Shown: positions 2,655 to 35,640 of the stretch, piece after piece
Numbering within the stretch: position 1 is the first letter of the stretch
How the letters are laid out: each line of letters starts with the position of its first letter
Source: Thozetella sp. PMI_491
Lineage: Eukaryota; Ascomycota; Sordariomycetes; Chaetosphaeriales; Chaetosphaeriaceae
DNA length: 64,000 nucleotides
Assembly: GCA_021432635.1 (NCBI GenBank)
Contig: MU270017.1
Span: 1,242,566-1,306,565, forward strand
Direction of reading: 5' to 3'
Program-made: the position numbers and the translations under genes
Notes under the pieces: generated by a model
Told to the model about the DNA's origin: nothing
What the model saw: only the letters and a program-made list of their open reading frames with translations
The model's database searches: none

Positions 2655-3393
2655 ATGGCTGCTCTGGAAAAGAACCCACAGGAGCTCGGAAAGGCCTCTC
2701 GCCTCGCCCATGTGCCGAGCGGGGAAGAATACGAGAAGATGGTGTCCGGGATGCTGTGCGTACAACTCGGCTTCCTCTGCCACAAAACCTCCGGATCTGT
2801 ATTGTCCTAACCTACTGCACCATTCTGGCAGCTATGACTCCATGGAACCGGAACTGCACAAAGCCCGGCTTCGCGCGCGTGCGTGGGCCCACAAGTTCAA
2901 CAACTACTTCCCGGTCGACACCGAGGCCAAGCCCGGCGCCGAGGAGAAGCCACACCTCGCGATGCTCCGCGAGATCCTAGGACATGTCGAGGGAGAACAT
3001 TGTTTCATCGAGGCCCCGTTCCGCATTGACTACGGATGCAATATCCGCTTGGGAGATTGCTTCTATGCCAACTTCAACCTGACCGTGCTGGACTGCGGCA
3101 TCGTCACCATCGGGGATCGCGTCATGTGCGGTCCCAACGTCTCCATCTACGCCGCCACCCACGAGGTCGAGGTGCAGAGCCGCAGAGACAACATCGAGTA
3201 TGCCCTCCCCGTCACCATCGGAGACGACTGCTGGATCGGCGGCAACGTCATCATCCTGCCTGGCGTCACCATCGGAGAGGGCTGCACCATCGCCGCCGGC
3301 TCCATCGTCACCAAGGACATCCCTGCCTGGAGCGTTGCGAAAGGGTCGCCCGCCAAGGTATTCAAGCAGGTGACGCCGGTTGGGAAGCCATAG
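2655..3393 (+). CDS. Maltose/NodL-type sugar O-acetyltransferase, 220 aa, two exons
   Basis: Predicted to transfer acetyl from acetyl-CoA to a hydroxyl of a sugar or other small molecule in the cytosol. Exon 1 is 2655-2755 (starts MAALEKNPQELG, then the family helix EEYEKMVSGML). A 76-nt intron (GTGCGT donor at 2756, CTAAC branch, GGCAG ending 2831) separates it from exon 2 (2832-3393, starting YDSMEPEL). The N-terminal half is the maltose acetyltransferase helical domain. The rest is a left-handed beta-helix of hexapeptide repeats such as VTIGDDCWIGG and VTIGEGCTIAAGS. The probable catalytic His is in YAATHEVE. Length matches the family. A longer open frame beginning at 2527 reads through the intron and is wrong before 2832. 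The gene is convergent with the aldolase; whether it acts on the neighbouring polyketide or on a sugar is unknown. Confidence 0.88.
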
Positions 3394-3560
3394 GGCGGCC
3401 GGCTAGAATAAGAAAGTGATAGAATTCCTATAGAAAGGCCAACCATAAGAACTCCCGGTGCTCTTGTTACAGGTCATGCATGATGTAAGGGGAAAGGGAA
3501 GCAGCACATCTCCAACATGTGTTTGCATCTTGACAAGCCGGGCGGGCCCTGTGGCTCCCT

Positions 3561-4629
3561 CTATTTAAGAAATTCGCCGCCCGTCTTCGCGAGCTGCTCG
3601 TCATAGTACGGTTGGAAGGCTAGCCAGCCCTTCTCGGGGCCACCAAGCTCCTGAGCCGAGTACGCAGCCTGCTCCGGGTCAATCAACTTCTTCTGATAGC
3701 CCGCCGCGGCCGCCGCATCCGCGAGGAGCTGGGCCTGGCAGGTCCGCTCCAGGCTAATGAACCAGAAGGCCGCCTCGTCGACTGTCTGTCCCACGGTGAG
3801 AATGCCGTGGTTCTGGAGGATCACGGCCTTGCCGCCGCCCAGCGAGTCGGCGATCCGGTTTCCCTCGTCTTCGTCGACCACGATCCCGCCAAACTGGGTG
3901 TAGATCGAGTGGCTTCCGTAGAAGCGCAGCGAGTCCTGCGTGATGGGCTCCAGCTCGCGCCCGAAGGCCGCAAAGGCCTTGCCATGCACGCTGTGCGCGT
4001 GGCAAGCGGCATGCACGTCCGGCCGCGCCCGGTGGATGGCCGAGTGAATGGCGAACGCGGCCGTGTTAATGGGCTCGTCGCCTTCGACCACCAGGCCGTG
4101 CTCATCGACCAGGATCAGGTCTGACACCTTGATCTGGGAGAAGTGCGCCGACAGCGGATTGAGCCCTGCGGAAGTGGTCAGCAACGAGGACGCGGAAAGA
4201 GTAGCAGGAGGAGGAGGGCCTACAGAAATGGTCGGTCAAGATAGGGTCCCGGACCGATATGTGACCGGCGACGCCCTCATCAAAGCCTCGGTCGGCAAAG
4301 ACCCGGAACGCCGCGGCGAGGTGCTGCTTGCGATAGAGCCGCTCCTCCTCGAGGGTGGAAAACTTGGGGTAACGTCGGATCTTGAGGTTGCGCCCATCCT
4401 TGGTCAGTCCCATCGACTGCACCTGCGGCGGTGGCGGCCTCTCCGAGACGCGCCGCGCCGGCTGGGCGGCGGCAGAGGGTCGGTGAAGGGACGCAGAAAA
4501 CGGACGGATAGCAGCGATGCCGGCCGGTTTCCGAGCAGCACGGCACGCGGCAGCAGCGCCCCTGAGTGCGGGCCTAGGGGCGGCCCTGCCGAGAGCGAGA
4601 GCGAGAGCGGGTGCGGGCGTCTGATACAT
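3561..4629 (-). CDS. Class II aldolase/adducin-domain protein, 336 aa, two exons
   Basis: Member of the zinc-dependent class II aldolase/adducin family (fuculose-1-phosphate aldolase, ribulose-5-phosphate epimerase and fungal relatives). Exon 1 is 4224-4629 and exon 2 is 3561-4165. The 58-nt intron (GTAGGC donor, CGCAG acceptor) splits a Trp codon and restores the motif FWLNPLSAHFSQIKVSDL. Likely metal ligands are the paired histidines in CHAHSVHG and the His in LQNHGILTVG. VAGHISVRDP is the substrate phosphate loop region. The first 70 or so residues are rich in Arg, Ala and Pro with hardly any acidic residues and contain RPFSASLHRP, so a mitochondrial presequence is plausible. It lies between the acetyltransferase and the ABC transporter. 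The exact reaction cannot be read from sequence, and cluster membership is uncertain. Confidence 0.85.
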
Positions 4630-5199
4630 GATTGTTTCAAGCTCTCAGGATATGACTTGTTCGAGAAACAGACGTGCCCGGGGAGTGTCTGGGGAAGTTG
4701 AGGCTGCGCAAAACGCACTGCCCTCATCGGCCCCGCATCCGATGTCGTAGGCGCGTTTCCGGGTATTTGGCGGGAGTAGGATGCCGGCCGTCAATGGCGT
4801 CAGGGTTGTGCATGTTAGGTGCCATACTAGGAGAACTACCTCGCTATTGGGCGTGCGTACCGTTTCATAGTGGGCGAATCAACTTCCAGGGGTTCCCCAA
4901 TTACCATTCACCTAGCCACGTTTGGTCGGACACGGTTCAACACCACCAGCTTCAGCCCGTCGCAGGATGGGTATGGCAACGAGATGCCACAAATAATCGA
5001 TCCAATATAGGACGAGGCTTCTTTATGTACAATGCAAGCCTACTATCCATGAACCCAGTACCGTAAAATAAAATAAAAATCCGTAGAAAAAATTGCATGA
5101 ACCCGAATACGCATCCGTACGCCTCTCCACCCGCCGGAAGCATGCAACCGAGCTATTACCGATCCAATGCCTGAGACTGACACTGTATGATACCGATGC
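4630..5199. other. Intergenic region between aldolase and ABC transporter
   Basis: About 570 nt. It holds the aldolase promoter on the minus strand and the 3' end of the transporter gene. No coding signal is seen. Confidence 0.5.
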
Positions 5200-8100
5200 T
5201 TAGCTTTCTGGGGGAGAAACAACAGGGCAAGGCGCAGCATCACTCACCATTTGATAGTACACGCCTCGCTTCGCTAAGAGGCTGGCATGATCCCCGGTCT
5301 CCACGACCGCCCCGTCGGCCATGACAAAGATGACATCGGCATTCTGCACTGTGGCGAGCCGATGCGCCACCACCACCATGGTCCGGGTCCCCTTGGCGGC
5401 GTTGATGGCTTCCTGGACCTGCCGCTCGGTCTCGCTGTCCAGGCTGCTGGTGGCCTCGTCCAGCAGGAGCAGCGCCGGCTTGCGGATCAGCGCGCGGGCG
5501 AGCGACACGCGCTGCTTCTGGCCGCCTGAAAGCGCGAGCCCGTAGGGGCCTACCGGCGTGTCGTAGCCTTGTGGCAGTGAGGCCACGAATTGCTCGAGGC
5601 CCGCGTCGCCCACCGCCTTGTGGATGTCTGCTTCCGGCGCCGCTGTGCCCTCGGCAAGCCCCAGAGTGATGTTGTGTCGGACTGATCCACTGAAGAGGCT
5701 GGGCTCCTGGGCAACTAGCGAGAGGCCCTGGCGGTAGAGCGTAAGGTCTAGGGTCTTGATGTCAACGCCGTTGCACAGAACTTGTCCCTTGTCTGGAGAG
5801 TAGAACCGCTCTAGAAGGGAGATGACAGTTGTTTTGCCAGACCCTACATAGACCATCCTCGTCAGTACTCTGGTGAATGATTGCAGTGATTCAAGGGTTC
5901 AAGGGCTCAAGGGGCTATGCGTCCGAACTTAGGGCTGCTTGCTCACCTGATGGCCCAACAATAGCAGCGAACTGGCCTGCCGCAATCTATAGTAAACTTT
6001 CCGTTAGTTGCAGGTAATTGTATGATGCCACCAAATCAGGCCCGTCCTGGATTGGTGTGCCCACCTTTAGGTTCAATCCCTTCAACACTGGAACTGGCCG
6101 AGTCGGGTATTCGAACCAAATGTCCTGGAACTCCACCTCGACCCCTTTCTCGTTGTCAACTTCAGGGACACTGCCACCCGCATGTAGACTGTCTTCCTCG
6201 CGGGTGGACAAGATGCGATCTGCGGCCGCGGTTGCGCTGGTGATGTCTTATTGCGTGTGTGGTTAGCTGCAGTACCCGGTTGGGAAGATGTACCTCCTAA
6301 GACAGGAAGACTCACTCGGCCCGAAGCTTAGTGTCTGTCCAGCACTCATGCCTCCCTAGATTGCAGTTATCTGTTAGTGCTCCGAACCAGGAGGCTTGAG
6401 CCGGTACAAGAAGGCATGTAATGTTACTTACTTGCACTACGGCAATGTATACAATCACTGCATGCGTATTAGCTATTTGCCAATCAAAAATGGCCAGTCC
6501 AAACTCACTGTATTGAAATGCTGTGTACTCTTGGCTGACCAGCAAGCGGCTTCCGTACCTGGAGAGAACATGGTTGTTAAATTGAATCTCATACGAGACC
6601 GTCAAGACGGGGAATTGTTTACCAGAGGATAAAGGCCATGCAAAGCAGAGAAACACTGTCACTGAGAGAGTACAAGAGCACCGAGACCCGTGCCGTACGA
6701 AACGCTTGTGTCACATGATCGCGCAACAGTTTCTCGTAGCGGTTCCAAGTGTGTGCTTCAAGCGTGAGACTAGAGACGGTGCGAAAGGCGGCGATGCTCT
6801 CGCACGCGAACTTTGCGCTCTCGGTGAACACAGCGTTGCTCATGGCGTCGAACTCCTTCTCGTACCGTACTCGGTAGAACATGGCCCCAACAACGATCGG
6901 GAGGGATGTCATCAGCGCTACCAGCGTCAGTTTCCACCCAAAGATGAAACTGATCAGGAGGCAGCCGGCGAGATTGAACCACGACATCAGCATGTAGGCC
7001 AGGTTGACACCGACGAGCTGCTGTAGCTGCGTAGGGTCGGTGGCGAGACGACCGACGAGTGCGCCGACGGAGTGGTCTTCCTCGTCGAAGAAAGAGGTGG
7101 GCTGGCTCAAGATGTTGGAAAGATACTCCTTTCGGTACACCCGAGTGATGGCGAAGCCGAGCGTGGTGGTCGACCAGCCCAAAGCCACCTGGCTGAGGCC
7201 CACGCCGATGGCAAGATACATGAACATTATGCACCAGAAATTGACAAGGAGTGGTAGGTATGTCTCCCAAATCGAAAATAGAGAAATCAGCGCTGCGAAA
7301 AGGTATGCCTGAAGCGGAGTGGAGGCTACCCAAGGTCAGTGATGCTTTCTGGAGGGGTCCAAGAAAACCAGACAAAGCACTTACCTCCTATTCCCAAGGA
7401 CCCGATGACCACCAGAATGTAAACCTTCCATCTCGATGACTGCTCAATTAGCAGCGTCCATATGCTACCATAATCCCCTACGGCAGATGGCTGTCCAATC
7501 ACTCTGATTGGCCCTTCGTCGATACTATCAGAGCTGTTTCTGCTGTGATACTCCTCGGTCTTCGGCTTGGGAGCTTCGGAGTCTCCACCTTGGCTGCTGA
7601 ATCTGGCAAGATCCTTCTCATCATCGCCTATGACCTCTTCTTTCATCGATGTGGATTCAATCGAGGCAGCGTCATCTTCTTCGACACCGACTCCTATATT
7701 TTGTGCTTGGGACAGCGCATGGTACGTGCTTCCAACCTCAGCCATCAGGCTCTGGTGGGTGCCCTCTTGGATGACACGACCCGCGCGTAGGACAACGATC
7801 TTGTCGGCCTTCCTGATCGTCCCGAGACGGTGCGCAATTACGATCGTTGTGCGTCCTTTTGAAGCACGATCTAGTGCCGCCTGGACAATCTGCTCGCTTC
7901 GGACATCAATAGCAGAAGTGGCCTCATCTAGAATCAAAATCTTCGGCTGCTTCACTATTGCCCGAGCAATAGCGAGACGCTGCCGCTGCCCGCCGCTGAG
8001 ATTGATTCCGTGCTCGCCAACCATTGTTTGGTACCCCTGGCATTGCATCAGAATTGAAAAGAAGATATATCGCACATGGCGTAAACCATTGCTGCTCGCA

Positions 8101-10321
8101 CATACCTTTGGAAGGCGGGATATGAATTCGTCGGCGAAGGCCTCTCGACACGCTGTCTTGATCATTCGCTCCTTTGTGTCGCTATCTGCATTCTCCCACT
8201 TGGTGCCAACGAGTCCATATTCGATGTTTTGGTAGATCGTGGTAGCGAAAAGAACGTTATCCTGCTGGACCAGGCCGATCTGGTTGCGCCACCACTTTAC
8301 ATCGATCTCGCGCAGCTCCTTCCCACAGATGGACACGATACCATTGCGAAAGAAATAGACCTACAAAACCAACCTTGATCAGAATTGGGGCTGAAGAGAA
8401 CAGGATGGCAAAACCGAAGAGCGCCTGGTTGTGGTGGAGCAACTCACCAGAGGTTTCGTCTCCGGGTGGCCATCAAACTCGTACCACCTCTCTAGGATCC
8501 CAACTATTGTGCTTTTGCCGGATCCTGATGGCCCTACAATAGCTGTCATCTTGCCGGCCTGGAAACGCAAGTTTAGGCCATCAAGGACCTTAACGTTAGG
8601 TCGAGTAGAGTAGGTAAAGTTGACGTTTTCCAGCACGATGTCCCCTTCTGCGAGATGGCTTTCCTCTGCCTGTATTGCGCCATATTCGGCGATAACCGAC
8701 GGTGGAGCAGCGTCAATTATGGTGTGGAAGATGCCAACTGCGTCAGCTGCCTGCTGCGCAGCCGACAGCGGTGCTGTAACCTGAGTGACTGTGACGGCAA
8801 TCAACATCACGGAAAGGAGGACACTAAAGTACATGTTAATAATCGTTTATGCCAGGAGGTAACCACGTATGCAGACTTACACAAGTAGCGGGTCAGGGCT
8901 TGATATAGCCACCAGCATATACAGTTTGAAAGCCGCCCAGAATGACAGGGCAAATGTCCTATAATTCGATAGTGAGCGAAACAAGTCATGTTTCTGCCGG
9001 TAGGATCAGCAGCTTAGGGTGGTGGGGAGGCACATACGCGTATACGCCGAGATATACTGGCCCATGCATGTTAGCACAGTTCAGTCAACGCTTCTCGTCC
9101 ATCTCCGTAGTTTACGTACCTAATCCTTGCTGAAGCGCTACTAATGTGGCCATATCTTTGCCTCTCTCGCGACCCTCGTCGACGAGTTTCGCATGTTGGT
9201 CGAGCATTTTCGATTCTGCTCCGCAGGCAGCTAGCATCCTGATTGATGTCAAGGCCTCTGTTGCCACAGATGCAGCTAACATGTCCATTTCCATGACCCT
9301 TGTTAAGATCTTGCCAATCCGGGGCGTCGTGAGGCCGTAGATAGCCACAATAAACACAAGCCCCATGCTCGTGGCGAAGGTTAGTAGCCAATTAGAGAAG
9401 AGTGCAATGACCAGACTGCCCAGTATGGCAGCTACGCCCGAGAAGAACTGGCTCAGCTTATCGGAGATGCCTAGCTGGAGTGTGCTCGCAACCGAAGTGA
9501 TGATAGATGCCGTCTGTCCAGGAGGGAGCACATCCAGTGTGGAGATTGGGAGGCTGAATAAAGACTGGAGATAAACAAGCCTGACTTCGGCTGAAATTCG
9601 TAGGCTTGTCATCCGGAAGCCCAGCTTATCTCTAGTTAGCTTCTATTTGGCACCGGAGGATAGACGCATAGCTAAGTACGTACATTGGCGACATAGGACA
9701 GCACAAGCCTGGCGATGAATACGAACACGATGTACAGTCTATCAGTGAGATATGCATTAGTTAGTTCTCTATATGGGATGGCTGTCAAAATGATAGGTAA
9801 GGGGTAGAAGAGGTGATGAGGGTAAGTGAGTAGCAGAATAATTGTTCATACGCATATTGGTCTATGACGCCCATGAAGTCTTGTTCAGTGTTCATCTGAC
9901 CAAGCTTGGCATACTCGGTGAAGTTGTCGATCATGCTGCCTGTACATCTTGGTTAACGGCAAGCCTCATGGTACAACATGTATATGACATAAACCCTAGA
10001 GTAGGCGTCGGGGGGGCACTAACCAAAGAGAATATACATGAACGGCATGGTCAGGCCTCTGCCAATGGCAGCGAAACATGATATGCCTAGAATTATTCGG
10101 TCCCATAGAGTAGTGTATGACAGTAATCTCTACATTTGAGACAGTAATCAGCACTATAACTCATGGCAAGCCAAAAGGGTTCGTATCGGAGGAGGACGGA
10201 CCATCAAATTGGCAGCTGCCAACTTGTGTTTTGCGGAGATCTTCAGCAAGGAATCTTCCCCTTCGCCAGCCTCGGTCTCCACGACCGGCGCATATGACGA
10301 TGTGCTAGCATTCTGCGCCAT
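5200..10321 (-). CDS. ABCB/MDR-type full ABC transporter, about 1312 aa, 17 exons
   Basis: Half-duplicated exporter (TMD1-NBD1-TMD2-NBD2), probably in the plasma or an internal membrane, exporting small molecules. NBD1 has Walker [10 protein letters not shown] (about residue 420), signature LSGGQRQR (about 545) and Walker [15 protein letters not shown]2 has Walker A GPSGSGKTT split by an intron, signature LSGGQKQR (about 1200) and [12 protein letters not shown]. Both H-loops (AHRL) are present. Exons I infer: 10202-10321, 10024-10129, 9852-9939, 9684-9738, 9120-9624, 9038-9056, 8881-8958, 8448-8823, 8106-8360, 7385-8036, 6623-7325, 6509-6558, 6432-6457, 6316-6355, 6065-6246, 5947-5986, 5200-5843. 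They total 3939 nt in one frame. The first intron has a poor donor (GTCCGT), so the N-terminus is least certain. The position beside the PKS suggests export of the cluster product or self-protection. Confidence 0.87.
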
Positions 10322-10914
10322 TTCCGTGAAGGAGGACAGCTACCGGTTCTCGGAATGGCATGGGAGCCGGAATGGAGACGTTGGCTGCCCGATACGCATG
10401 CGCACTCGACGGAAGTGATAGCAGAGCTGGGCGGCTGAATCCCGGGCCTAGACATAAAACCAGTGGCAATATCGCCACGAGACGCAGCAGCAGCTCGGAC
10501 CGTGTCTTGTAAAATTCACCACCATTCACTTCGGCGTAAGGTGGGCGGGATGAATCACGCTAAGGGATGAATGGGCTGTGCTGAGTCTGGAGGGTCCAAG
10601 ACAGGGGGGCCTAGGCGTTTCGAGACCGGCCCCGAGGCACCCGATTAGCGTCAGTACAGTGGCGGAGAACCAGACGAAACCACCTGGTCTGGAAACCCCT
10701 TGTGACAAGTGGTGAGCATATTAGATTGTGTTCGGCAGCACAGCCGATAGTTCAAGATGGGAATGAAACGGAAGCTTCTCGGCACGGTTGAGGGAAGGTG
10801 AACAAATTCAATTTGTGTCACGGATATCTCAGGTCCTTCTATTTATAATGCATAGATATTTCCGTCCGTCCAATGTAGAAAGCAAAAAAAGCGCCATGTA
10901 GTCCTCTCCGGGTG
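10322..10914. other. Intergenic region between ABC transporter and FSH1 hydrolase
   Basis: About 590 nt containing the transporter promoter (minus strand) and the 3' flank of the hydrolase. A short A-rich run sits near 10885. No coding signal is seen. Confidence 0.5.
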
Positions 10915-11936
10915 TTACAAGCCCATCTCTTCGTCAATGTCTGCGATAGCCGTGCGTATTATATCCCCGAGCTCCTTTATCGTCTCCCGGTCTCGGGGAA
11001 GCATGTGCCCCTTGCCGTGATCAAATAGATATGCTGTATCAGGTTCGCAGACGTTGAAAAGCGCCATAGAGCCGTCAATGTAGGGATCCATAGAGCCCAC
11101 TAGCCGGAAGCACAGTAGATTAGTAGAACGCTCCAAGTGCTGGAAAGACACAGGACTTACCGATATGGAGTGTTCGAATTTCGATCTTCTCCTCGCTCTC
11201 GTCCGACAGCACCAAGGCGTGGGTTGTCGGATCAAGGGGCGGCCAGCCGGCAAAGAAGATAGCATACTTAAACATAGAGGACGCGCCGGGCCCCTGGCGC
11301 TCTACGCGACGCTGCTCGTAAAGGAGCAAAGTAGCCGCAACGGTGGCGCCTTCCGAGTATCCAATGATGCCGTCGAACGGGCCATGCTTGTTCATGATGT
11401 CGACCAGGTACTTGATCGCCTGGTTGACACTATGATGTGCGCTCGCCAAGCCCTCTGCCCGCATCAGCTCGCGCATTGTGTCCTCGGCCGTCTCGCACTG
11501 AGGAAAGTCCCGAATCCGAGTGAGGACATCCTCATCTTCCTCTGATTCGTCATCAGAGTCGGGCTTAGCCCAAGAATTGTCAATCTTGTCAGGCTCGATG
11601 AAGCGGTAGTGTGGCTCTGCGCCGAAGTAGTCCTCAAAGCCCGGCGGTGGCACCGCCTTGCAAGGGCCTTGTGTGAAATAGAAAGTCGCGCTCCCGTCTT
11701 CTGTGAGCTCTTTCAATACTGGACCTGCCGCACATGTAAGTCTTAGAGCAAAATCGTCTCCCCCGGCTAAGAGGCTCAGTGGGGGTAAGAGGTGCAGGCC
11801 AGACTAACTCAGTTGCACCTGGAATTTCTATACTTTGGTTAGCCTGTGCCAAGGTCGAGAGGCGGCACTTGGTTGCCGGAATCAAGGTACTCACATCAGC
11901 GCTTCCATACGCTCCAGGCAAACACAGGAATCTCAT
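10915..11936 (-). CDS. FSH1-family serine hydrolase (LovG-like), 269 aa, four exons
   Basis: Alpha/beta hydrolase of the FSH1 family. Exons: 11895-11936 (MRFLCLPGAYGSAD), 11809-11827 (a 19-nt exon encoding KFQVQL and the first base of Ser), 11161-11724 and 10915-11099. All introns have GT-AG ends and the total is 810 nt. The nucleophile Ser is in GYSEGA, the acid is probably the Asp in VGSMDPYIDG, and the His is in DHGKGHMLPR. Family start (MRFLCLPG) and length agree. An acidic loop (DSDDESEEDED) follows the oxyanion region. In known fungal clusters (LovG in lovastatin, for example) such proteins release the product from HR-PKSs that lack a thioesterase. This gene is divergently paired with exactly such a PKS, so that role is the best inference here. 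Confidence 0.9.
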
Positions 11937-13245
11937 GGCGTCTATCGAGAATATGGCTAACTGATGACAGCAGACAACAAGCTTGGGTGAAGAAGATACA
12001 GCGCGAAACAAATCATAGATATCGTCTGGTGATATATCGAAAGGTTGAAGTGATGTGACGGAACACGCTACTTCCTTGTCATTCCTCTCACACATCGCTT
12101 GAACCACCCAGAAGGGGGAAGGTCGGGGGTACAGGTAGATGGTACCTGCTTCCCCTTACGACATGGGTCACCTTAGATCCGTCCTTGGCTCTCGGAGGCG
12201 TTGGATTGACACTGGGTGACCTAGTTTAGCGCCTTGCTATCCGAAACCGATACAGCTACAGCACCAATCTCGCCCGTGTTCTCGGTGCTGTTTCTTTTGC
12301 GCTTAAATTTTAAGGCACGGCTAGCCTATCCAGATCCCGGGCTTGTAACCCGTCCGATCCCCACGAGCAGGGGAATGGGGCTACAGTCGTGCGACAGGGG
12401 AAGCACCGCAATGTTTCAACGCAGCGCTCATCTTTTGATGTTTCCGTCCGTGCAGCCCGGGCCACGCGATGATTTGCTTCTGCGCGTTTCCTCCCTCGTG
12501 GTGCCGAGCGGATCGGCGGCGATCTCCCCTCGGGCCTGATCTGCCGGTATCCCGGGGTGATCATCTGGTTGAGCACACTCCGTATTCGCATTCGAGCTTC
12601 CAAAAATGTCACCACATGCATCCGACGAACCAAGACGGTAGGCATGCATGCGTAGCCACGGAGCCGGGTGCATAGAGCCTTCAGAGCCTTGTGCCGGGTG
12701 CTTCCTATCGCCAGCAGCCTGCCAAGCCGGAGGCGCACGCCTGAAGTAAAACACAACAGCTGTCGCCTGCCCCAGGGTTGGCCACCCTGGGGTCTGGACT
12801 AACTCGGTTAGCCACGCTTGAAGTGACCTCTCTCGAACGCATGTGGTACCAGGCTCCATGCTGAGGCATGCGGCCCCCGCTCGTCGTCTGTGCAATGCGT
12901 GGTGGCTTAGCCTCCCTGGCCGGCGGCGATCACGGCCAGGATCACCTCCCGAGCGTCTGGACGGCGCTTCGACCTTTGATACGAAAGGTCCCTGTCTCAG
13001 AGCTCTGCGTGCTCCTCCGTCCGGGCTGGCATCTTTTAAAAAAGACGGACAGGAATGGAATTTCCTTCCGACCTTCTAGTAAAAGTTACCCTAGCCGGCC
13101 GTAGTTTGTCTGAGCTATAGCATGCTGCAAGAAAAAGGGCGGAATAGGTGGTGCATCGCACTTATGAGCAGGCCTTGAAGATACCCACACCACATTATAC
13201 GCCAAACCACGAGACATCGCTCCGTCTCTTAACACCTACTTTGCC
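11937..13245. promoter_or_regulatory. Divergent promoter region, FSH1 hydrolase / HR-PKS
   Basis: A 1.3-kb spacer between the divergent start codons of the hydrolase (11936) and the PKS (13246). It is long enough to carry shared control elements. I see no coding frame with family similarity and no clear activator palindrome. The PKS ATG has the favourable context TTTGCCATGG. Confidence 0.5.
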
Positions 13246-16200
13246 ATGGCGCGGGCCGCTCTGTCAATGTCCTCTTCGGGGGGCTCGGCGTCATCACCCA
13301 TAAGCACCCGCAGTAGTAGCCCCGAACTCACAACTCCCTCGACCGACATCGCGGCCGAGGGCTTCAACAACGACCATCCCAACCCCCACGACGGAGCCCA
13401 CGCCGCGCCGGGCCATGGACTTGGCGCAAGCTTCCAGCAGCCGATTGCCATCGTTGGCATGGCCTGCCGGCTGCCAGGCAACGTGAGCAGTCCGCAAGAG
13501 TTTTGGGAGTTGTGCTCGCGAGCACGCAGCGGCTTCATGGCTGGCGTTCCCAAGGACCGCTTCAACCACGACGCCTTCTATCACCCTAACCCGGGCAAAG
13601 GAGGGACCTACCACGCCGCCGGTGGCTACTTCCTAGATGGCGACATGGCAGCTTTCGATGCACCCTTCTTTGGTCTCACAGAGAAGGAAGCTGTTGCGAG
13701 TACGTGGTATCCCCCTCCTCTCGCCGTGGCACCCTCGCCGCTATTTTACTAGGCTAGAGTGTTGGCTGACCAAAACGTTCCTCTCCCCAGTGGATCCGCA
13801 GCAGCGTCTGTTGCTCGAATGCACCTTTGAGGCGCTGGAAAGCGCCGGCGTCCCTAAGCACACCATTGTGGGTAAGCAGGTCGGTGTCTTTGTGGGTGGT
13901 AGTCTATCGGAATACGAAGTCCACCTTTCGAGGGACAGTGATACTATTCCTATTCACCAAGCTACCGGTATGTAAAAAGAATTCGCTCATTATATCCTGT
14001 CTCTCTGACAGTGGTGCTTACTCTATCGTTTCGCAGGATGCGCCCAAGCGATGCAGTCTAACCGACTCTCGCACTTCTTTGACCTTCGCGGCCCAAGTTT
14101 CACTGTTGACACGGCGTGTTCCTCCAGCTTGACCTCACTTCACGTAGCGTGCCAGAGCTTACGAGTGGGAGAGTCTAAGGCTGCGATTGTTGGCGGCTGC
14201 CACCTCAACTTGCTTCCCGAGCTCTTTATCTCGTATTCTACCTCAAGGTATGTACATACTCACGGAGCCTAGGCCTCGACTGGCCACCAGAAACGATCAG
14301 AAGGTTGACATGGAGTGAATAGGCTGCTCTCGGACTCGGGTCGATCGATCGCCTTCGATGAGCGTGGCACAGGTTTCGGGCGTGGCGAGGGCTGCGGCAT
14401 CCTGATTCTGAAGCCTCTTGCCCAGGCTCTTCAGGACCAAGACCCAATCCGGGCCGTCATCCATGGCACCGGCATCAACCAAGACGGGAAAACACCCGGT
14501 ATCACAATGCCGAATGGTGACGCACAGGGTCAGTATGCCAGCTGAGGCTATGCGCTCATTTACGAGAAGCTCTCAATGCTAACCCACATTCCAGAGACAC
14601 TCATCAAGGAAGTCTATAGAAACGCCGGCATCGACCCTCTCGAGTGCGGCTACGTAGAAGCCCATGGAACCGGAACCAAGATAGGAGACCCTACAGAAGC
14701 TGGGGCTATCTACCGTGCCATCGGCCAGGGTCGAACGAGCAGGGATCCGCTCTACATCGGCTCCGTCAAGTCCAACATCGGACATCTTGAAGCGGCGTCT
14801 GGAATTGTCGCCGTGATGAAGGCGGCGCTGATGCTGGAAAGAGGGTTCCTCTTGCCCAACCACGACTTCAAGAAGCCAAACACCAAGATCCCCTGGAAAG
14901 ATTGGAACCTCAAGGTCCCCAACAGCGTGCGTCCGTGGCCAAAGGGCAAGAAGTATGTGTCGGTCAACAACTTCGGATTCGGCGGCACGAACGCCCACGT
15001 CATTCTGGGCAAGGCACCATACGTCCCTGTTCCAAAAGCGAATGCAGAAGCAGGGCAGTCGGGTAGCAAGAGACTGTTTGTCCTGACAGCGAATGACAAG
15101 CACTCTCTGGAGGAGGTTACAAAGAAGATGGTTATCTACCTGGAGCAAAGGCCCGAGTAAGTCGTCCACCACCCACCTCGATTCCGATTTTTGGCTGTCT
15201 TGCTGCTGCTCAACTATCGAGGGAAATACTTTCCGACATGACTGACGATTTCTACAGAATTTTCCAGTCGGACCTCCTAAACAACCTTGCATACACCCTC
15301 GGAAGGCGGTCTCTCCTGAAATGGAGAGTCGCTATCCCGGCGACGACCTCGTTCGACGTGATCGAGTCGATCAACAGCAACAAGGTCATCAGCGGCAGGG
15401 AGACCGGCGAAGAGATCCGTATCGGCTTTGTCTTCACTGGCCAGGGCGCGCAGTGGGACGGCATGGGCCGAGAGCTCTACGGCCAGTATCCGGCCTACAC
15501 TCTCGCCCTGGACCGCGCAGACCGGTACCTAAAGTCGCTAGGCGCGCAATGGTCCTTGGTCGAAATCCTGTGCGGTACCAGCAATGACCCCAACGCACCC
15601 AAGTTGTCTGAGGCCCATGTTTGCCAGCCCGCATGCACCGCCGTGCAACTCGGCCTAGTCGATCTGCTGCGGACTTGGGGCATCCGCCCGGTAGCGGTCG
15701 CGGGCCACTCCAGCGGCGAGATTGCCGCGGCGTATGCTGCCGGCATCATCAACTTCGAGGCCGCCTTGGCCATCGCCTATCACCGCGGACAGGTCATCCC
15801 AGTCCTGAAGAAGAAATTCCCTGAGTTGCGCGGTACCATGATGGCGGTCGGCATGACCAAGGAGGAGGTGCAGCCGATCCTTGAAGCTATGCCGGCAGAG
15901 CAGCAGCCCCGGATCCGGGTTGCCTGCTACAACAGCCCGTCGTCCCTTACCATGTCAGGCGATGCGGACGCTATTGCGGGGATGGAGAGCGTCATTGAGG
16001 CCAACATGCCTGACTCTTTCCACCGGCGCCTCCAAGTGGATGTAGCGTATCACTCACACCACATGAACCTGGTGGCCAAGGATTACAAGGACGCGTTGAT
16101 GGGCTCGGCCCTCCCGCAGCCAGAACCGCGCACCGGCGGCGTCAGATTCCATTCTTCGCTGTACGGCCACCAGATCACCGGCTCTGAGTGCAATGCCGAC

Positions 16201-19200
16201 TATTGGGTCGACAACCTTACATGCGCGGTGCGCTTCTCCGAAGCCTTGACCACTATGTTTGTCGACCCCGAACAGACCCGATCCGAGGATGAGCAGGTAA
16301 ACATGCTCATTGAGCTCGGCCCACACTCAGCCCTCCAAGGGCCTATCAAGCAGATCCTCCAAGCCGTCGGTATCGCGTCCAAAGTTCCGTACGGTTCTGC
16401 GCTCGTCCGGAAGCAGACAGCAGTCGAGAGCGCCGTGGACCTCGCGGGCAGCCTCGTCACGAAGGGAGCCGCTATCAATATGGACGCCATAAACTTCCCT
16501 ACAGGTCTCAACAAGAAGACAACCATGCTGACAGACCTCCCGCGTTACCCGTGGAACCATGAGAAGCGGTATTGGAAGGAGTCGTCGCGACTGGCCGTCA
16601 TGCACAGGCACCGCGGAGCAGAAGGCGAGTCGAGCAATACTGTGCGCAGCGACTTGATCGGGCTCGAGGCCATCTACTCAAATCCTCTGGAGCCGACCTG
16701 GAGGAACGTCGTGACCGTGGATGACCTGCCGTGGTTGAAGCACCACCAGATCCAGGGATTAACTATCTTCCCCATGTCCGGCTTCATCGCCATGGCCCTC
16801 GAGACAGCTGCTCAACGTCGCGCACAGCAGCAGCAGCCGTCCAAGGCCAGTGCTGCCAATCAGCCCCAGCAATTCGACAGATTTGAGCTACGGGATGTCG
16901 AGGTTCTAAAGCCACTGGTGCTTCCCACGGGCACGGAGGATGACAGCGTCGAGATGACCATCTCCCTCCGGCGACACCGTGGTGCCAAGGACGCCGAGTC
17001 CTGGGACGAGTTCCGCATCTGCTCTTGGACTCAATCCGGTGGCTGGACAGAGCACTGCGTTGGCCTAGTGGCAACAACCCACACTCACTCAGCTGAGGCA
17101 AACGGTAACAACAGCATCGAGGCCATAGCCTCCTTACACCAAGCCGAAGTCATCAGCGCAAGTATTGCAGCGGTTCAGAGCCCGGACACTGTCGAAATGT
17201 CCGATATGGCCAACATGTACGAGTCTGTTGCTGAGCTAGGTGTGTCATACGGTCCATCCTTCCAGGGCATCGTGGATTGCAAGACCACCGGCAGGTATGC
17301 AGTGGGCAGCATTGCCGCTACAGCTATACCACAACCAGACAACATGGCCTGCCAGCAATCTCCTCACAAGGGCAGCATCTTGGCCAGCATCCACCCCACT
17401 TTCCTTGAATCTATGATCGAGATGTATTGGCCGCTCCTCTCTGGTAAGCCCTCTGCCGATGGTGAGAGCGAGAACAAGAACATCTATCTCCCAACCTCTG
17501 TGAAGCACATGTCCATCGCAAGGGATATCACAGCTGTCAACAACGTCAGGGCCTACTGCCATGCTGACTTCGACTCAACAATGCCGAAGGCGACCAAGGT
17601 GGACATATTCGCGACGGTCACAGAAAACGGAGCGAGCAGCATGGCCAAGCCCCTCATCGAGATCGACGAGCTCGTCGTGTCCCCCGTCCTGGATGGGGCA
17701 TCATCCGATCTCGATACTCCGGATGCACCTCGCAATCTATGCTACAAGATGGAATGGGAAGCCCTCGAGCTCGCTCATGAGGCGGGAAATTCTTCAGCGG
17801 TCCTTCCCGACTTCGATATTGATCTCATTCACGGGGAAGAGTCGTCCTCATCCTACATGGTCGCCAGTGAGCTGGCTGTTGCCCTGGAAGCTGCTACGTC
17901 CAGGCTGCCCAGTCTAGTTGGGTTCCTCGACAGCCACAAGCATGTGTCCAGCTCAGATGAGAACAGAGGAAGGGTTTGCGTTGTACTGACTGAGCTTGAT
18001 CAGCCTCTGCTCGCAAACGTGAGCGAGGCTCAGTTCAGCGCCATCCAAGCCCTGACAGCAACATACACACAGGGTATTCTGTGGGTGACACGAGGCGCCT
18101 ACGAGCAGTCCACCTCGCCAGAGTCCAATATGATCAGTGGGCTCAGCAGGACGGTCCGCTCCGAAACTCTTCTGCCGTTTGCCACCCTCGATATCGATGG
18201 TCAGGGCAGCAACAGGGGCTCCATCAAGACTATCGTTGACGTCTTCAGGGCCGCGTTTGGTAACGGTCTCGAAAACGATGCACCAGCCTCCATAACCGAC
18301 AAGGAAATGGAGTTCATGGAGCGACGTGGGCAGCTCTTCACTCCTCGTGTCATCAATGATGACAAGATGAACGACTACATCCACCGCCAGACCACCTCCA
18401 ACCCTCGCAGCAGGCTGGAGCCTCAGCAGTTCTCCCAAGTGGACCGGTCTTTGAGGCTGGCCATGAGCGGCGAGTCTGCAAATGCCGCCGATGAGATGAA
18501 CTTGCTTCACTTTGTGGACGACGATAAGCTCGTCGGCATAGAACTAGGAGATGACGAGATCGAGTTTGAAGTCAAGGCCGTGGGCGTGAACATGCAGGAC
18601 GCTAATGCGATGCTGTGCGCCCGAGACATGTCTCATTCCAGCTCCCCCACTACCCCTACGGGAATTGAGGCTGCTGGTCTCATCACAAGAGTCGGGCGCC
18701 ACGTGGACGCCAGCTCGTTTGCCCCGGGCACATCCATCGCTTGTCTCACCACTCCTACGCACGGTGCTTATGCCACGTTCGGGCGTGCAACATCATCGAC
18801 CGTGCTCCGGATGCCTGAGACAGGGGCCAGCGGTATTCCTCTAACCTTCGAGAAAGCCGCTGCCCTGCCCCTGGCCTACAGCACCGCATACTACGCTCTG
18901 GTCGAGCAAGCACGGCTGCAGACGGGGCAGCGTGTGCTTATCACCTCAGCCGCCGGCCCCGTGGGTCAAGCAGCTGCTTATGTTGCTCTCAATGCCGAGG
19001 CCGAGGTATTCCTCACGGTTGGAACCGAGGAGGAAAGGAAAGTACTCGAGGGACAGTTTGAGGGCCGCATCGCCAAGGAACACATCCTGCACCACAACAG
19101 CAACCGTACTGGTCTGTTTAGTGCAGCGATTCAGCGCATCACACAAAGCAAGGGAGTTGATGTGTTGCTAGACTTGGCTCCAGAGTCCATGTCTCGAGCC

Positions 19201-20894
19201 GAATGCTGGGCAAGCCTTGCTCGCTTCGGCTCTCTCGTTCAGGTGACGCAAGTCCAGTCGAATGCCTCTGCTGCTACGAGGGGAGCCGACCACAACGCCT
19301 CTTCGGCCATTCCGAGGAATGCCTCTCTGATGACCGTTGACATGACATCTTTGGTGGCTGAGAGACCCGAAATCCTTCGTCGCGTCATGTCCAGCATCAC
19401 ACAGCTCCTTGAGGAAGGCAAGATTCCGATCCTCGAGCCGGCCACTGTCCTCCCCTTCTCGCAGGCTGAGACCGCCTTCAAGACAATGCAACAGGGCACG
19501 GAGAGCGTATCAGGAAAGATCGTGCTTGTGCCCCGCGCTGACGACCTCATTATGGTATGTATCTGCGTCCTTGTTTGCCGTCGCTATGGTGCGTTCGATT
19601 CGATACCGTGGGCTAACCATCTTTACAATAGGCCACACCTCCAACCAAGATTCCATCGTCCCAGAGGCTATTGCGCGCAGACGCTAGCTACGTCGTGGTT
19701 GGCGGAACTGGTGGCCTAGGCCGTAGCATGGCACGCTGGATGGTGGCTAACGGCGCAGGCACTATCATCCTTCTTACGCGCCGTACTCCGGAAGACAGTG
19801 TCTCTCCCAACGATGCCGCTGGCGCGAAGGTCCTCCAGCTTATCGAGGATGCTCGTGCTGTTGGGGCCACAGTGCTGGTAAAGCAGTGCGACGTCACTGA
19901 CGCCGATAGCGTCGTAAGCCTGTTTGCCTCCGGCCTCGTTGGCCTATCTTCTGTGCGCGGCATCATCCACAGCGCCATGGTCCTGCGAGATGTGCTCTTT
20001 GATCAGATGACCTGGAAAGATTACACCACCGTCACCGAGTCCAAGGTTCAAGGCGCCTGGAATCTCCACCGAGAGACGCTTCTTGACGGGAGCAATCGCA
20101 ACAGAGCGACGGTACCAGACCCCCTAGACTTCTTCGTCGTCATCTCGTCGGTATCGGGCGTCGTGGGCAACCGCGGCCAGGCAGCGTACGCAGCAGCCAA
20201 CACTTTCCTCGATGCCCTCGTCCAGCACCGCAGGGCGAATGGCATGGCTGCCGCCTCCCTTGCTCTAACCGCTGTGTCCGATGCCGGCTACCTTGCTGAC
20301 GACGGCAACGGTGCGGAACGCGCGGCATTAGTAGCGCGCAACCTGGGTGGCGCCGAAAATACCATCTGCGAAGCCGAGGTCCTCGCACTGCTTGGCGCTG
20401 CCATCAAGGCTAGCTCAGCTGGATCAGCCAACGAATCGGAGTGCCATAACAATCACGTATTCATGACCGGAATGGGTGTCAGCGCCAGCAAGTCGACGAA
20501 GGGGGCGGAGCGGCCCTTCTGGGCTGTCGACGCCAAATTCAAGACGCTGGTTGCGGCGGACAGAGATGCACAGGAGGCAGACACGACTGGTGGTGCGGCC
20601 AAGGTTGTCTCTCTCAACCCATCCCTCGATCAAGCCGAGGCGGAAGACCTGGTATGCGGCGGACTCGTGACCAAGATCGCACAGGTGTTAATGATGGAGC
20701 CGGAAGAGCTCGACGTGACGCGCACCCTCGCTCACTACCCGTTGGACTCGTTGGTTGCCATTGAGATCCGAAACTTTATTGCTCGCGAATACGAGGCCAG
20801 CCTGCAGGTTCTGGAGCTGCTGAGCAGCGGAAGCATCCAGACCTTGAGCAAGGTTGTGTGCCGCAAGAGCAAGCTTTGCCCTACCTGGGAGTAG
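13246..20894 (+). CDS. Highly reducing type I polyketide synthase (KS-AT-DH-ER-KR-ACP), 2389 aa, seven exons
   Basis: Iterative HR-PKS building a reduced polyketide from malonyl-CoA. Exons: 13246-13699, 13791-13967, 14037-14247, 14323-14528, 14595-15156, 15258-19554, 19632-20894; total 7170 nt. KS has Cys about 238 in VDTACSSSL, His in EAHGTGT and His in KSNIGHLEAASG. AT has GHSSG near 688. DH (about 1008-1345) has the His motif HQIQGLTIFP, but the second motif reads HPTFLESM, with Glu where Asp is usual. ER (about 1614-1964) has SAAGPVGQAA. KR (about 1986-2230) has GGTGGLG and the SSVSG/AAYAAAN active site. ACP has the Ser in YPLDSL. The roughly 270 residues between DH and ER show no SAM-binding motif, so C-methylation is not expected. 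No TE or reductase follows the ACP, which fits release by the neighbouring FSH1 hydrolase. Confidence 0.95.
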
Positions 20895-22212
20895 TAGCAT
20901 GGGCTCAGTTTTAGACACTCACATGGGGAACATTATGTAAATACCAACCCCACAAGATGTACATATGGGAGATACACCAAATAAGGCAGAATTTCATTCC
21001 ATTTCTGGAACGTACTTTTATTACACCTGTGATGCCGTGTTGTAATATAGCCCTTTTCCAAAAGGTAGGTTGGCTGCCTTGTGTCTGGCACAAGCCACGC
21101 TTGGAGAGGAAATCGAATAGAACCGTAAATGTTTACTTACATTTTGACAAAGGTATCCGAAGTGGCACATATATTCTTGTGCTATCCTAAATACTAGGTC
21201 TCGGGTGTGAAACGAGGAGCTAGTATGGGTTCGACGGAAATATTGTTGGAAAGCGCACGCCAAGATAGAGTTGTATAGGTTAGTAAATGAGGAGTTAAGA
21301 TAGAAAGATGCTTGACCAGCTATAAGCTGGCTGGCGGGCCATCTATTTACCATCACAGGACAGTTTGATCGACTTTCATGTAAGCCTCACGCCATATAGC
21401 CTCGTCATCTAGCTAAAGCACACGCAATACAGCTTCGTCATCTAGGCTTAGACATCGCGCAGTGAAACCACTAAGTGTAGCAGAACGCTTCGGAGCTTTC
21501 CTAATGGGGTAAGCGGTAACAGCAGTCTAGTTTTCTTTGCTGCTTTACAAGAAAGCTGTATAGGCTCGAGGAAAGCGTCGCCTAGCAGCTGTAATCGTTT
21601 AGTTTGAAGGCGCTCAAGACTTCTCGTTCACTAGCAATATTCACACTTGACGAACACATGATAGAAGATAAATATGTGAACAGCTCATCTTCCATTTATT
21701 AACACAGCAGAAGGGGCGTTCAACTTGTGCAGATGGGCAGTAACCCTCGTAGGCCACGTCTGCCCTAGATCTAGTGGTCCTTGGCGACGACGATGCCAGG
21801 GTAAGGTAGCTATAATCCACCCCCTGTATGTCTGTGAGCTTGGTAGGAGATAGAGGCCAGCCAAATTTTGGGAGCTTGAGGTCAGTAGACGGCCCTGTAG
21901 GTTTGTTGTTGGCCCCTGTGAGTCTCCGCTGGTCCTGTAAGCTCTCTGTATCCGAAACAATTACCTTTCTTCTGGCCTACGGAGTAATGTGAAGACAGAG
22001 ACATTTGGATTTCCACGATACCAAGCAAACAGAGATGGCATTGTATTTACATCAGCGGTCCAATATAAGCTCTCAGATAATGACTTCCACCCCGCCGTTC
22101 TCACGCTCCAGTCGCGTTTGAATCAGTCGGCTGTACAGCCATTCTTTACAAAAGAGCTTGATAATTGAAACACGTGTCTTTTCAAGTCATCTAGGCTTGC
22201 CATGCGAACTGC
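20895..22212. other. Intergenic region, AT-richer, with a short imperfect direct repeat
   Basis: About 1.3 kb between the PKS and the oxidoreductase (convergent genes). Two imperfect copies of the phrase CTTCGTCATCTAG / CCTCGTCATCTAG occur between about 21395 and 21450. No supported coding frame is seen. Confidence 0.45.
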
Positions 22213-23127
22213 CTATTTAGTGAATACAGACTCCAGGTTTTCAAGGTAGGTCTTGGCTGTCGTCAGTTGGATTCCCCGCTGATAATTGAGCGTCTTCTCG
22301 TAGTCCCACGCGATGCCAATTCCTTCTCCAAAGATAATCTGGTACTTAGTCCAAAGATCCTCAGGGTTTTTCGCCAGTTTGTCCTTCAAAGCAGCAATTG
22401 TCAGCTCCTCTCTTTGCACCCTGGTCTTTAGGACTTCATCAACGAGATCGGCGAGCTGCCCGTACGAGATTGTATCCCCTCCGATGTAGACCACTTGATT
22501 GATCGTGCCTTCCGGCACAAATGTAGCCTCGGCCACCATGACGCCGATGTCCTCAGGGGTTGTTACCGTTACCCTTGTAGCCCAGCTCCCAAGGGCACAC
22601 ACTCTGCCGGACTTGAGATCAGCCACCTCAAAATCCGGCAAGAACAGATAGCTCATGAACAGCCCCGCGGAGATGATAGTCCAGCTAGTCTTGTTTTGTG
22701 ACCGAAGTAAACCCCGGACTTGAAGCATCTCGTCAAACAGTGGCTGTGAGCTACCAGCCCCGATGGCTTCATAGTCAACTCCAAACTGCCATGGGAAGTA
22801 ATGAGGCACCTGCGCTTCAAGCACCGCTCTAGTAACGCCAAGCTGTGTTCCGGGCTTCATGCCGTACCCTGCGCATTGGATGACGGTCTTGTACTTTTGA
22901 AAGACAGCTACCAGACCAGAGGGGTCCTTGGCAAAGTCTCCGGGTTCGATATTGATGCCGAGGTCCTTAATATGACTAATGCTGGCTTTCTTTATGTCGT
23001 CATTCGAATCGATCGTCTCCTGCCGGAGGAGAACGGACACCTGCGCCCCCCTGCGCTGTTGATGTTTTACGAGAGCCTCGAGCGTGGCCGTCCCTAGCTC
23101 TCCGGCTCCAACGACGAGAACGGACAT
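22213..23127 (-). CDS. CipA-like NmrA/isoflavone reductase-family oxidoreductase, 304 aa
   Basis: NAD(P)-binding Rossmann protein of the NmrA-like/isoflavone reductase group. It is a single exon. The N-terminus MSVLVVGAGELG is a classic dinucleotide-binding GxGxxG-type loop, which fixes the start at 23127; the frame extends further upstream but has no ATG before it. Conserved features include HYFPWQFGVDYEAIG, SWTIISAGLFMSYLF and VTVTTPEDIG, all typical of fungal CipA-like proteins. Members reduce aromatic or unsaturated substrates or act as redox sensors; substrate cannot be predicted. It could be a tailoring enzyme of the PKS cluster, but 1.3 kb of intergenic DNA separates them and membership is uncertain. 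Confidence 0.85.
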   Translation of the reverse strand: MSVLVVGAGELGTATLEALVKHQQRRGAQVSVLLRQETIDSNDDIKKASISHIKDLGINIEPGDFAKDPSGLVAVFQKYKTVIQCAGYGMKPGTQLGVTRAVLEAQVPHYFPWQFGVDYEAIGAGSSQPLFDEMLQVRGLLRSQNKTSWTIISAGLFMSYLFLPDFEVADLKSGRVCALGSWATRVTVTTPEDIGVMVAEATFVPEGTINQVVYIGGDTISYGQLADLVDEVLKTRVQREELTIAALKDKLAKNPEDLWTKYQIIFGEGIGIAWDYEKTLNYQRGIQLTTAKTYLENLESVFTK

Positions 23128-23595: not shown

Positions 23596-24639
23596 TTAAT
23601 AGTAGTAATCCCTCCGAACATACTCGTAAGTAGAATCCTGTCCAATTTGGTTGGCAGAGAACCGGCTCTGGTCTGCACTGTGTAGCTGCGCCATGAGATT
23701 CGCGTTCATGCCTTGCTGGGCGATCCCGGGCGACGGCGCCGGAGCTGCGGCGTTCAATTTGTTCACTACGTGTGGAACAGGCGCATCGGGAAGCGCCCAG
23801 CGTGGGAGGTCTCCCTTCTCCCGCCAGATAGGGAGCTGGTAAGTCTGCATGACCCGGTTGAGGTCGCCAACCGCTTTGGACGGGTTAGACAGGGCATCCA
23901 GCGTCGCCAGGTCGATGAAGCCCCGAAGTGTCAGCAATGGCATCTGGCTTGTCGGAAGAGCACCACCGACGAGGCCCACTAGGTTCGACAAGGAGGACTG
24001 GCTCTGTCCTTGGCTCGACTGCCTCGGGTGGAGGACGTACTCGATGTGGAACATGTCGTACACCTGCTTGAGCGCATGGTCGGCCTGGCCCTCTCGATTC
24101 GACCCGAACGCCGATTGATACGCAAACCTCCCTAGTTCGCATGAGCAACATAACGCGAATGTGGAGGACACAATGGGTTACTTACAAACATTCCGAGGCC
24201 CTGTCACACCAAGGAGGTCAAGCAGAGACGAATAGGCCTCTGGCGTGAGATAGCCCGTATGGCTGGGATCCAAGTGGGCGAAGATGTTTTGCGCAAGAGA
24301 GACATAGTCGTGATTAGGGGTCCACGTGGTGCCATTGAACAGTGGCTGCCATCCGGCTCTCTGCTGGGGGGCGTATCCTTGGGGGCTTGCTGATGGCTGA
24401 GCTTGTGGCGACTGCTGCACTGGGGGGTGCTGGGGGAGGGCCGGCGGATGAGGAGCCTGTGTGAAATTGCTCGTCCTGAACGTGATCATGCCGTGGTTTG
24501 AGGCATGATTTTGGGTGGCAACCCCGACTACAAAGCAGTTCGCGCAGAGGTCGTAGGAGCCGGGGCACATCTGGCAGTGGACGCGGGCCTTCTGCGCAGG
24601 AATGGGCTCCCGACAGCCATCACACATGTACAGCGACAT
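23596..24639 (-). CDS. ZZ-type zinc-finger protein with EF-hand-like segment, about 329 aa
   Basis: Conserved type of fungal protein of unknown function. Exon 1 is 24186-24639 and exon 2 is 23596-24131; a 54-nt intron (GTAAGT...CTAG) joins GPRNV to WRFAYQ. The N-terminus has a ZZ finger: CDGC, HCQMC, YDLCANC, then HASNH, enough Cys/His for two zinc ions. A Pro/Gln-rich linker follows, then an EF-hand-like segment (HLDPSHTGYLTPEAYSSLL) and a C-terminal domain with MPLLTLRGFIDLATLD. ZZ fingers usually bind protein partners such as histone tails or Arg-degrons. The start at 24639 is the first ATG in frame. An open frame at 24667-24944 (RREWLATSQE-type residues) may be an upstream exon, but I found no clean intron to join it. 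Confidence 0.72.
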
Positions 24640-34114: not shown

Positions 34115-34170
34115 GGTACAGTACAGTCAGTACCTGCGGGACGGTCCCAGAGGTACAGTACAGTACCTGG
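34115..34170 (+). repeat. GTACAGTACAGT direct and inverted repeat
   Basis: GGTACAGTACAGT begins at 34115 and again at 34152. Each copy continues to a GTACC, so the copies can also pair as short GGTAC/GTACC hairpins. Function unknown. Confidence 0.6.

Positions 34171-35153: not shown

Positions 35154-35158
<5 letters not shown>

Positions 35159-35184
<26 letters not shown>
35159..35184 (+). repeat. T26 homopolymer tract
   Basis: Twenty-six consecutive T within otherwise GC-rich DNA. It may be a reversed poly-A end of an old retroposed copy, but no target-site duplication or element body was recognised. Confidence 0.7.
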
Positions 35185-35561
35185 GGCTTTTGCTCCCTCC
35201 CCCTTCTCCTTTTCCAGTGGAGGGCGTGTGTTGGGCTGTGCCTGCCTCGCAGATTCCCTCGAGCATGTTCCAGCGGCCGACTGTCTCGGTCGCGCCGGAG
35301 AGAAAGGAGGGCGCGAACGCCGGCGGTTCGTCATGCCCCCGGGCCACATCCCATCTGTCTTGGCTTCCAACGCCTTCGAAACGGGTGGTCGAGGAAACAA
35401 GCAATCGTCAAACCCACCACCACCAAAAGTTGGTCGGATTAATTATGGCATTGACGGAGGGCCACGGGAACGACAGCTCCCTTATCGATAGGCTCCCGCT
35501 ACCCCGCTCCGGGAAGCACGGTCGCCATGAACCAAAAGGTAAGTTACTATTTCGTCCAGGT

Positions 35562-35640
35562 TCAGCGTCCGCTGCGGTTATGTACGCATTGTTTCTGAAG
35601 TGGGTCATAGTGGGTTAAGGACAGTGTGCGATTTCCAATC
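35562..35640 (+). repeat. Diverged dispersed repeat, copy A1
   Basis: Shares TTCAGCGTCCGC and, about 20 nt later, a roughly 40-nt segment (AGTGGG ... GACAGTGT) with 43688-43768. Most differences in that core are C/T or G/A transitions. Element family not identified. Confidence 0.5.

Follow-up and report, generated by a model that had tools for sequence, protein, structure and literature searches.

A 64,000-nucleotide stretch of contig MU270017.1 from the ascomycete Thozetella sp. PMI_491 (hereafter the window) carries, near its left end, a gene for a reducing polyketide synthase (PKS) within a run of six genes, and this raises the question of which of these genes work together and how the synthase gives up its product. 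An earlier note on this DNA had described the run as an uncharacterised six-gene cluster, and its outer limits, 2655 and 23127, coincide exactly with those of the leftmost six gene models in our set, which span 20.5 kb with no further model among them. The models come from our own intron-aware exon-intron predictor, trained on the codon use of the window; its training stretches and its costs for introns, starts, and stops were adjusted, and the final set holds 15 gene models. In all six genes the main domain passes its Pfam cut-off. We consider it probable that the locus is a small reducing-polyketide cluster with a four-gene core (5156-23127), comprising an ABCB exporter, an FSH1 hydrolase, the PKS, and an NmrA-type protein, in which the FSH1 hydrolase would unload the PKS.

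The polyketide synthase and its proposed release partner

The PKS gene (13246-20894, forward strand) has seven exons (13246-13699, 13791-13967, 14037-14247, 14323-14528, 14595-15156, 15258-19554, and 19632-20894) that splice to 2389 amino acids with zero internal stops, and the gene is apparently intact. Pfam matches give the domain order KS-AT-DH-pseudoKR-ER-KR-ACP, with ketoacyl-synt at 1.5e-76 (KS at residues 65-531), KR at 2e-55, the pseudo-KR as NAD-bd_HRPKS_sdrA (892-1031, numbered within the second piece), and the ACP as ACP_SdgA_C. The sequence contains DTACSSSL, EAHGTGT, KSNIGH, GHSSGE, SSVSG/AAYAAAN, and PLDSLV, which we take to be the catalytic motifs of the KS, AT, KR, and ACP domains. 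With these motifs present and LovB (7cpx, 3.4e-219) as its best PDB match, the protein appears to be a fungal reducing PKS of the LovB family.

Pfam detected neither a thioesterase nor a methyltransferase domain in the PKS at E 0.001, in agreement with the earlier description of a highly reducing PKS that lacks a thioesterase and might make its product without methylation. The stretch between the first and second blocks aligned to LovB spans 327 residues in the PKS (1116-1443) versus 635 in LovB (1055-1690), the second block being a weak one of 14 bits, and the same comparison with psoA, a weak match of 22 bits, gives 1146-1437 versus 1098-1678. A stretch shorter than in LovB and psoA is expected if a C-methyltransferase (cMeT) domain is missing.

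Divergently from the PKS, on the reverse strand, lies the gene for the FSH1 serine hydrolase (10915-11936; 267 amino acids, four exons). The protein belongs to the Pfam family FSH1 (PF03959, 1.2e-32), and its sole PDB match is the yeast protein 1ycd (E 4.7e-5), on whose GLSQG, GASD, and GGHM its own GYSEG, GSMD(P), and GKGHM lie. We presume that GYSEG, GSMDP, and GKGHM hold the Ser, Asp, and His of the FSH1 triad. An acidic insert, SDDESEEDED, is found between the N-terminal part of the protein and its nucleophile region. The start codons of the two genes are 1309 bp apart on opposite strands (intergenic region 11937-13245), and neither the gene models nor a six-frame Pfam scan detected anything else between them. 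The divergent pairing with an FSH1 hydrolase that had been proposed is therefore upheld by the family match, by the triad residues in the 1ycd alignment, and by the adjacent PKS without a thioesterase. The six-frame scans (stops read as X, E-value limit 0.01) covered 1-2700, 9900-13250, and 20890-22216, and in these intervals no regulator or P450 was detectable, FSH1 being the sole match; for the scanned gaps this is as the earlier note had stated. The gaps 3394-3560 and 4630-5155 lay outside these scans, and on the left side the 2.65 kb up to the window edge are without a Pfam match.

Judged by domain content and gene arrangement, the PKS and its FSH1 neighbour are the known LovG-type trans-release arrangement, in which the FSH1 hydrolase would be the trans-acting release enzyme of the PKS product. 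FSH1 proteins form a small family, and chance placement of one beside a PKS is unlikely, as a general judgement rather than a count. Comparable systems in other fungi lend themselves to the same interpretation. Loss of the trans thioesterase abolished the product in both fusarielin (PMC6274466) and fusamarin (PMC10947347) biosynthesis, and FSH-type release of a PKS product is proposed for rasfonin (PMC10290801).

The following scheme is inferred, including the pairing of PKS with FSH1, the parts given to reductase and pump, and all of the chemistry. Malonyl units would be joined on the ACP of the PKS into an unmethylated chain. Because the PKS has no detectable thioesterase domain of its own, the FSH1 hydrolase would take the chain off it as LovG does, yielding a free acid. 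One NADPH-dependent step may follow, catalysed by the NmrA-type protein, and the ABCB pump would either export the product or protect the cell.

The DH and ER domains of the PKS, when compared with related enzymes, are doubtful. The DH domain is matched by PKS_DH_N (2e-11) and PS-DH (2.4e-9). Its second motif reads HPTFLE, against HPALLD in 7tzl and CurF and HPVMMD in PpsC, so that the catalytic Asp is replaced by Glu, as seen in three of the four displayed rows that reach the site (in the fourth, 4ln9, HPALLD is out of register), with all four matches weak. The ER domain aligns to MAS, CurK, and FAS, and the Lys of EIGK, kept in 5/5 displayed relatives, is Gln in the PKS; the profiles ADH_N (22.9 versus a cut-off of 23.5 bits) and ADH_zinc_N (23.2 versus 31.8) both fall below their cut-offs. 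If both domains are impaired, the PKS would be effectively ketoreducing and its product a polyhydroxy acid, an outcome compatible with any other reading of the locus, which we regard as possible while leaning against it. Conversely, the first DH motif, HHQIQGLTIFP (HxxxGxxxxP), is intact, and the DH may still work because Glu is the natural acid at the matching place in FabA/FabZ dehydratases. The nucleotide motif of the ER aligns without loss, and ADH_zinc_N_2 passes its cut-off. Moreover, the rows compared at these sites are bacterial and animal enzymes with no fungal ones among them, and the changes may be common in the clade of this PKS. Since DH and ER each have one changed key residue, we neither accept nor reject the term highly reducing for the product. 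Of the simple reduced acid suggested earlier, the reducing PKS stands, whereas the product itself is an unproven guess in view of the Asp-to-Glu change in the DH and the Lys-to-Gln change in the ER.

Probable extent of the cluster

The ABCB exporter (5156-10321, reverse strand, about 18 exons) has matches to ABC_tran (9.2e-62) and ABC_membrane (1.1e-55) in two stretches each, corresponding to two membrane domains and two nucleotide-binding domains. The predictor model covers 5156-9934, and the exons 10024-10129 and 10202-10321 were placed by hand, with in-frame splices, to an ATG at 10321. This doubled architecture confirms a full-size exporter of the type that had been named.

The NmrA-type protein (22213-23127, reverse strand; 304 amino acids, single exon) has the nucleotide-binding motif GAGELG and matches NmrA in Pfam (1.8e-17) and 1qyc in the PDB (5.5e-11), where its nearest relatives are the plant phenylcoumaran/isoflavone reductases (8 matches). 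At a site that is Lys in the plant relatives, it has Met in both of the two alignments displayed from these 8 matches. We take this Lys to be catalytic in the phenylcoumaran/isoflavone reductases, and with Met in its place we class the protein as NmrA-type only. The CipA-like reductase of the earlier note is thus retained as a member of the NmrA family, while its more specific label rests on that family membership and the catalytic Lys is absent.

To ask which genes belong together, we compared GC content at third codon positions (GC3). The NmrA-type, ABCB, FSH1, and PKS genes have values of 0.61-0.69, whereas the acetyltransferase gene and the aldolase-fold gene at the left end of the run, at 0.81 and 0.80, rank third and fourth highest of the 15 models. 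The four core genes average 0.651 versus 0.768 for the other 11 models, and 6 of 1365 four-gene sets are as low, with the caveat that the grouping was picked after the values had been seen. Because their GC3 is like that of housekeeping genes and unlike that of the core, the acetyltransferase and aldolase-fold genes probably flank the cluster and are not pathway enzymes, and the locus is most likely an ordinary trans-release PKS cluster of four genes. Of the cluster first proposed, the PKS with its trans-acting hydrolase remains, whereas the acetyltransferase and aldolase that made it distinctive appear, from their housekeeping-like GC3, to lie outside it.

Several observations weigh against this four-gene core. 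The nine remaining models range from 0.64 to 0.90 in GC3, and the lowest of them, a short-chain dehydrogenase/reductase (SDR) gene at 62695 (0.637) and a ZZ gene (0.697), are also low while lying outside the core. GC3 moreover reflects expression level. The replacement of Lys by Met leaves the NmrA-type protein not secure as a reductase. The promoters likewise give no sign of common regulation: among the five cluster promoter regions, no 7-mer occurred in every one and no 8-mer in four or more. CGG-N-CCG sites were also considered as a cluster signal and were dropped, being found in cluster and control promoters alike.

The lack of a shared promoter k-mer would also fit a unit consisting of the PKS and FSH1 genes only, with the exporter and reductase as chance neighbours. 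There is no direct tie of the ABC transporter or the reductase to the PKS, and the reductase gene lies 1.3 kb past the PKS across a gap without a Pfam match. However, the exporter and reductase genes are low in GC3 like the PKS and FSH1 genes, and clusters of this kind commonly include exporters and NmrA-type reductases. We therefore regard so small a unit as quite unlikely and favour the four-gene core.

The acetyltransferase and the aldolase-fold protein

The acetyltransferase gene (2655-3393, forward strand; 220 amino acids) has two exons, 2655-2755 and 2832-3393. A Mac cap (4e-16) and hexapeptide repeats (Hexapep, 8.9e-13), with a match to the maltose transacetylase 2ic7 (5.8e-44), support its identification as a sugar-type O-acetyltransferase of the maltose/NodL kind, as it had been called.

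The second gene (3561-4629, reverse strand; 336 amino acids, two exons) encodes a protein that had been described as a class II aldolase. Its Pfam match to Aldolase_II (2.2e-49) gives the class II aldolase/adducin fold only. Among the 25 NCBIfam models shown of 26, the sole one passed is PRK06208 (385.4 bits versus a cut-off of 255), while the FucA equivalog TIGR01086 reaches 46 bits versus a cut-off of 400. In the PDB ranking, 4xxf (250 bits) is followed by NovR (9ryg, 224), TqaM (9m09 and 9m0a, 215), and 9n43 (206). The next match has 105 bits, and the L-fuculose-phosphate aldolase entries come to about 50 (35 matches in all). That PRK06208 covers NovR and TqaM is deduced from both matching the query.

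Residues were also compared with bacterial relatives, which share 46-60% identity with the aldolase-fold protein and were drawn from 62 loci; 41 reading frames from 40 of these passed the open reading frame filter and the other 22 loci were dropped. The three His of the protein are kept in 40, 41, and 39 of the 41 frames. The residue 19 positions before the HxH motif is Ala in the query, and Ala (35/41) or Gly (6/41) in the bacterial relatives. We take this to be the site of the catalytic Glu of FucA, a residue that lay outside the displayed alignments. In the flanks fetched with the bacterial relatives, genes named by eye as RidA-like (24/62 loci), methylmalonyl-CoA-mutase-like (28/62), and EamA-like transporter (27/62) were also seen.

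In PMC13111500, NovR and CloR are described as three-His iron oxygenases that carry out two decarboxylations, of a 2-oxo acid first and of a 2-hydroxy acid next, and TqaM likewise performs oxidative decarboxylation of a 2-hydroxy acid (PMC11880133). From these comparisons, the aldolase-fold protein is more likely a NovR/TqaM-type three-histidine iron oxygenase than an aldolase. The likeness consists in the three kept His and in the presence of NovR and TqaM among the five best PDB matches (206-250 bits, the next at 105), while the protein differs from NovR, CloR, and TqaM in its long Arg-rich N-terminus. The main point against an oxygenase is that the single best PDB match, 4xxf, was deposited as a fuculose-1-phosphate aldolase, although names of PDB entries need not be tested functions. 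The class II aldolase assignment thus holds for the fold but probably not for the activity, since NovR and TqaM, and not the fuculose-phosphate aldolases, are the group into which the protein falls.

The first 62 residues of the aldolase-fold protein are Arg-rich and without acidic residues; the first 60 hold 10 basic and no acidic ones, the only such N-terminus without acidic residues among the 15 models. This leader type suggests a mitochondrial protein. The coding support of the leader is weak (codon log-odds of 0.95 versus 13.9 for the next 72 codons), so the start codon may be misplaced.

These properties bear on whether all six genes form one cluster, with an acetylated reduced acid as the product and the acetyltransferase and aldolase-fold enzyme as tailoring steps. 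The genes are contiguous within 20.5 kb, uninterrupted by further gene models, and the scanned gaps gave no additional Pfam match. Conversely, the GC3 of the two genes (0.81 and 0.80) is housekeeping-like against 0.61-0.69 in the core, the N-terminus of the aldolase-fold protein suggests a mitochondrial location, and the identity of 46-60% that this protein shows to bacterial ones is what a conserved enzyme of metabolism would be expected to have. The combination nearest to the six genes that we met is the FVEG_12519-12534 run of Fusarium verticillioides, which is presumably the fusaric acid (FUB) cluster. PMC10512309 tabulates this induced run, in which an acetyltransferase and an aldolase whose class is not given accompany a PKS and an FSH1 hydrolase; it differs from the present locus in its amino acid kinase, sulfhydrylase, and transcription factors, and in an FSH1 gene that lies two genes from the PKS. 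Moreover, the fusaric acid acyltransferase is described in PMC9495618 as being of the homoserine type, unlike the sugar type encoded here. Aldolase-fold enzymes of this kind can serve biosynthesis, as TqaM does in tryptoquialanine biosynthesis (PMC10764440 and PMC11880133). On balance we consider a six-gene cluster unlikely.

A further six-gene possibility would combine the altered DH and ER domains with the oxygenase. The PKS would make a hydroxylated chain, FSH1 would free it, the acetyltransferase would acetylate its hydroxyls, and the NovR/TqaM-type oxygenase would shorten it by one carbon, decarboxylating a 2-hydroxy acid oxidatively, so that acetate units would yield a product of odd length. 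We hold such a new type of pathway to be very improbable.

Surroundings and known systems

To the right, the locus is bounded by conserved genes, namely the ZZ-finger/DUF7514 gene (23596-24639, reverse strand) and thymidylate synthase (25610-26696, forward strand), both identified by gene model and Pfam, an Abp1-like DNA-binding protein, and an SH3-PX-PB1 protein. Short introns, a PKS with fungal LovB as its best solved match, thymidylate synthase, and the SH3-PX-PB1 protein together point to a filamentous fungus. At 27714-28877 (forward strand), HTH_ABP1_N and Tc5-transposase DNA-binding domains occur with no transposase catalytic domain reported, which has the look of a CENP-B/Abp1-type host protein. 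A stretch of about 14 kb (32520-46569) is without a gene model and holds two reading frames of at least 200 amino acids; it may be gene-poor, though the predictor misses weakly biased genes. At 57727-60417 (reverse strand), a single 896-amino-acid reading frame with IBR domains is a candidate RBR-type ubiquitin ligase. The predictor, whose sensitivity is limited, missed this frame, and the absence of a model beyond 1-26 kb is weak evidence.

Among known systems, the four-gene core resembles the LovB/LovG pair of lovastatin in having a LovB-family reducing PKS without a cis thioesterase and an FSH1-type hydrolase encoded nearby. LovB carries a C-methyltransferase domain, whereas no cMeT domain was found in the PKS here, and the rest of the lovastatin gene set differs from this locus. 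LovB also uses the trans enoylreductase LovC (PMC6274466), whereas no separate ER gene was found at this locus. Fusarielin (FSL1/FSL2) and fusamarin (FMN1-FMN4) likewise come from small clusters that pair a reducing PKS with a trans thioesterase on which the product depends, but each also includes a trans-ER and a transcription factor, which were not found here, and FSL1 has a methyltransferase domain (PMC6274466). In the rasfonin gene run an FSH-type serine hydrolase likewise accompanies PKS genes, while two PKSs, P450s, and an O-acyltransferase set it apart (PMC10290801). Asperlin, with a reducing PKS and an acetoxy group, is a conceivable further parallel. Among the open-access titles listed, none described a cluster with this gene set, which is no proof of its absence from print, and the available portion of the Verticillium cluster paper PMC9495618 names none.

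The locus would join the many reducing-PKS loci with trans release as one more uncharacterised case. It also carries two cautions for the annotation of such loci: the label class II aldolase can hide a NovR/TqaM-type iron oxygenase, and where DH and ER residues are changed it is unsafe to guess the product from the names of the domains. An oxygenase acting on the polyketide, if true, would be a new tailoring step by which such a chain is shortened carbon by carbon.

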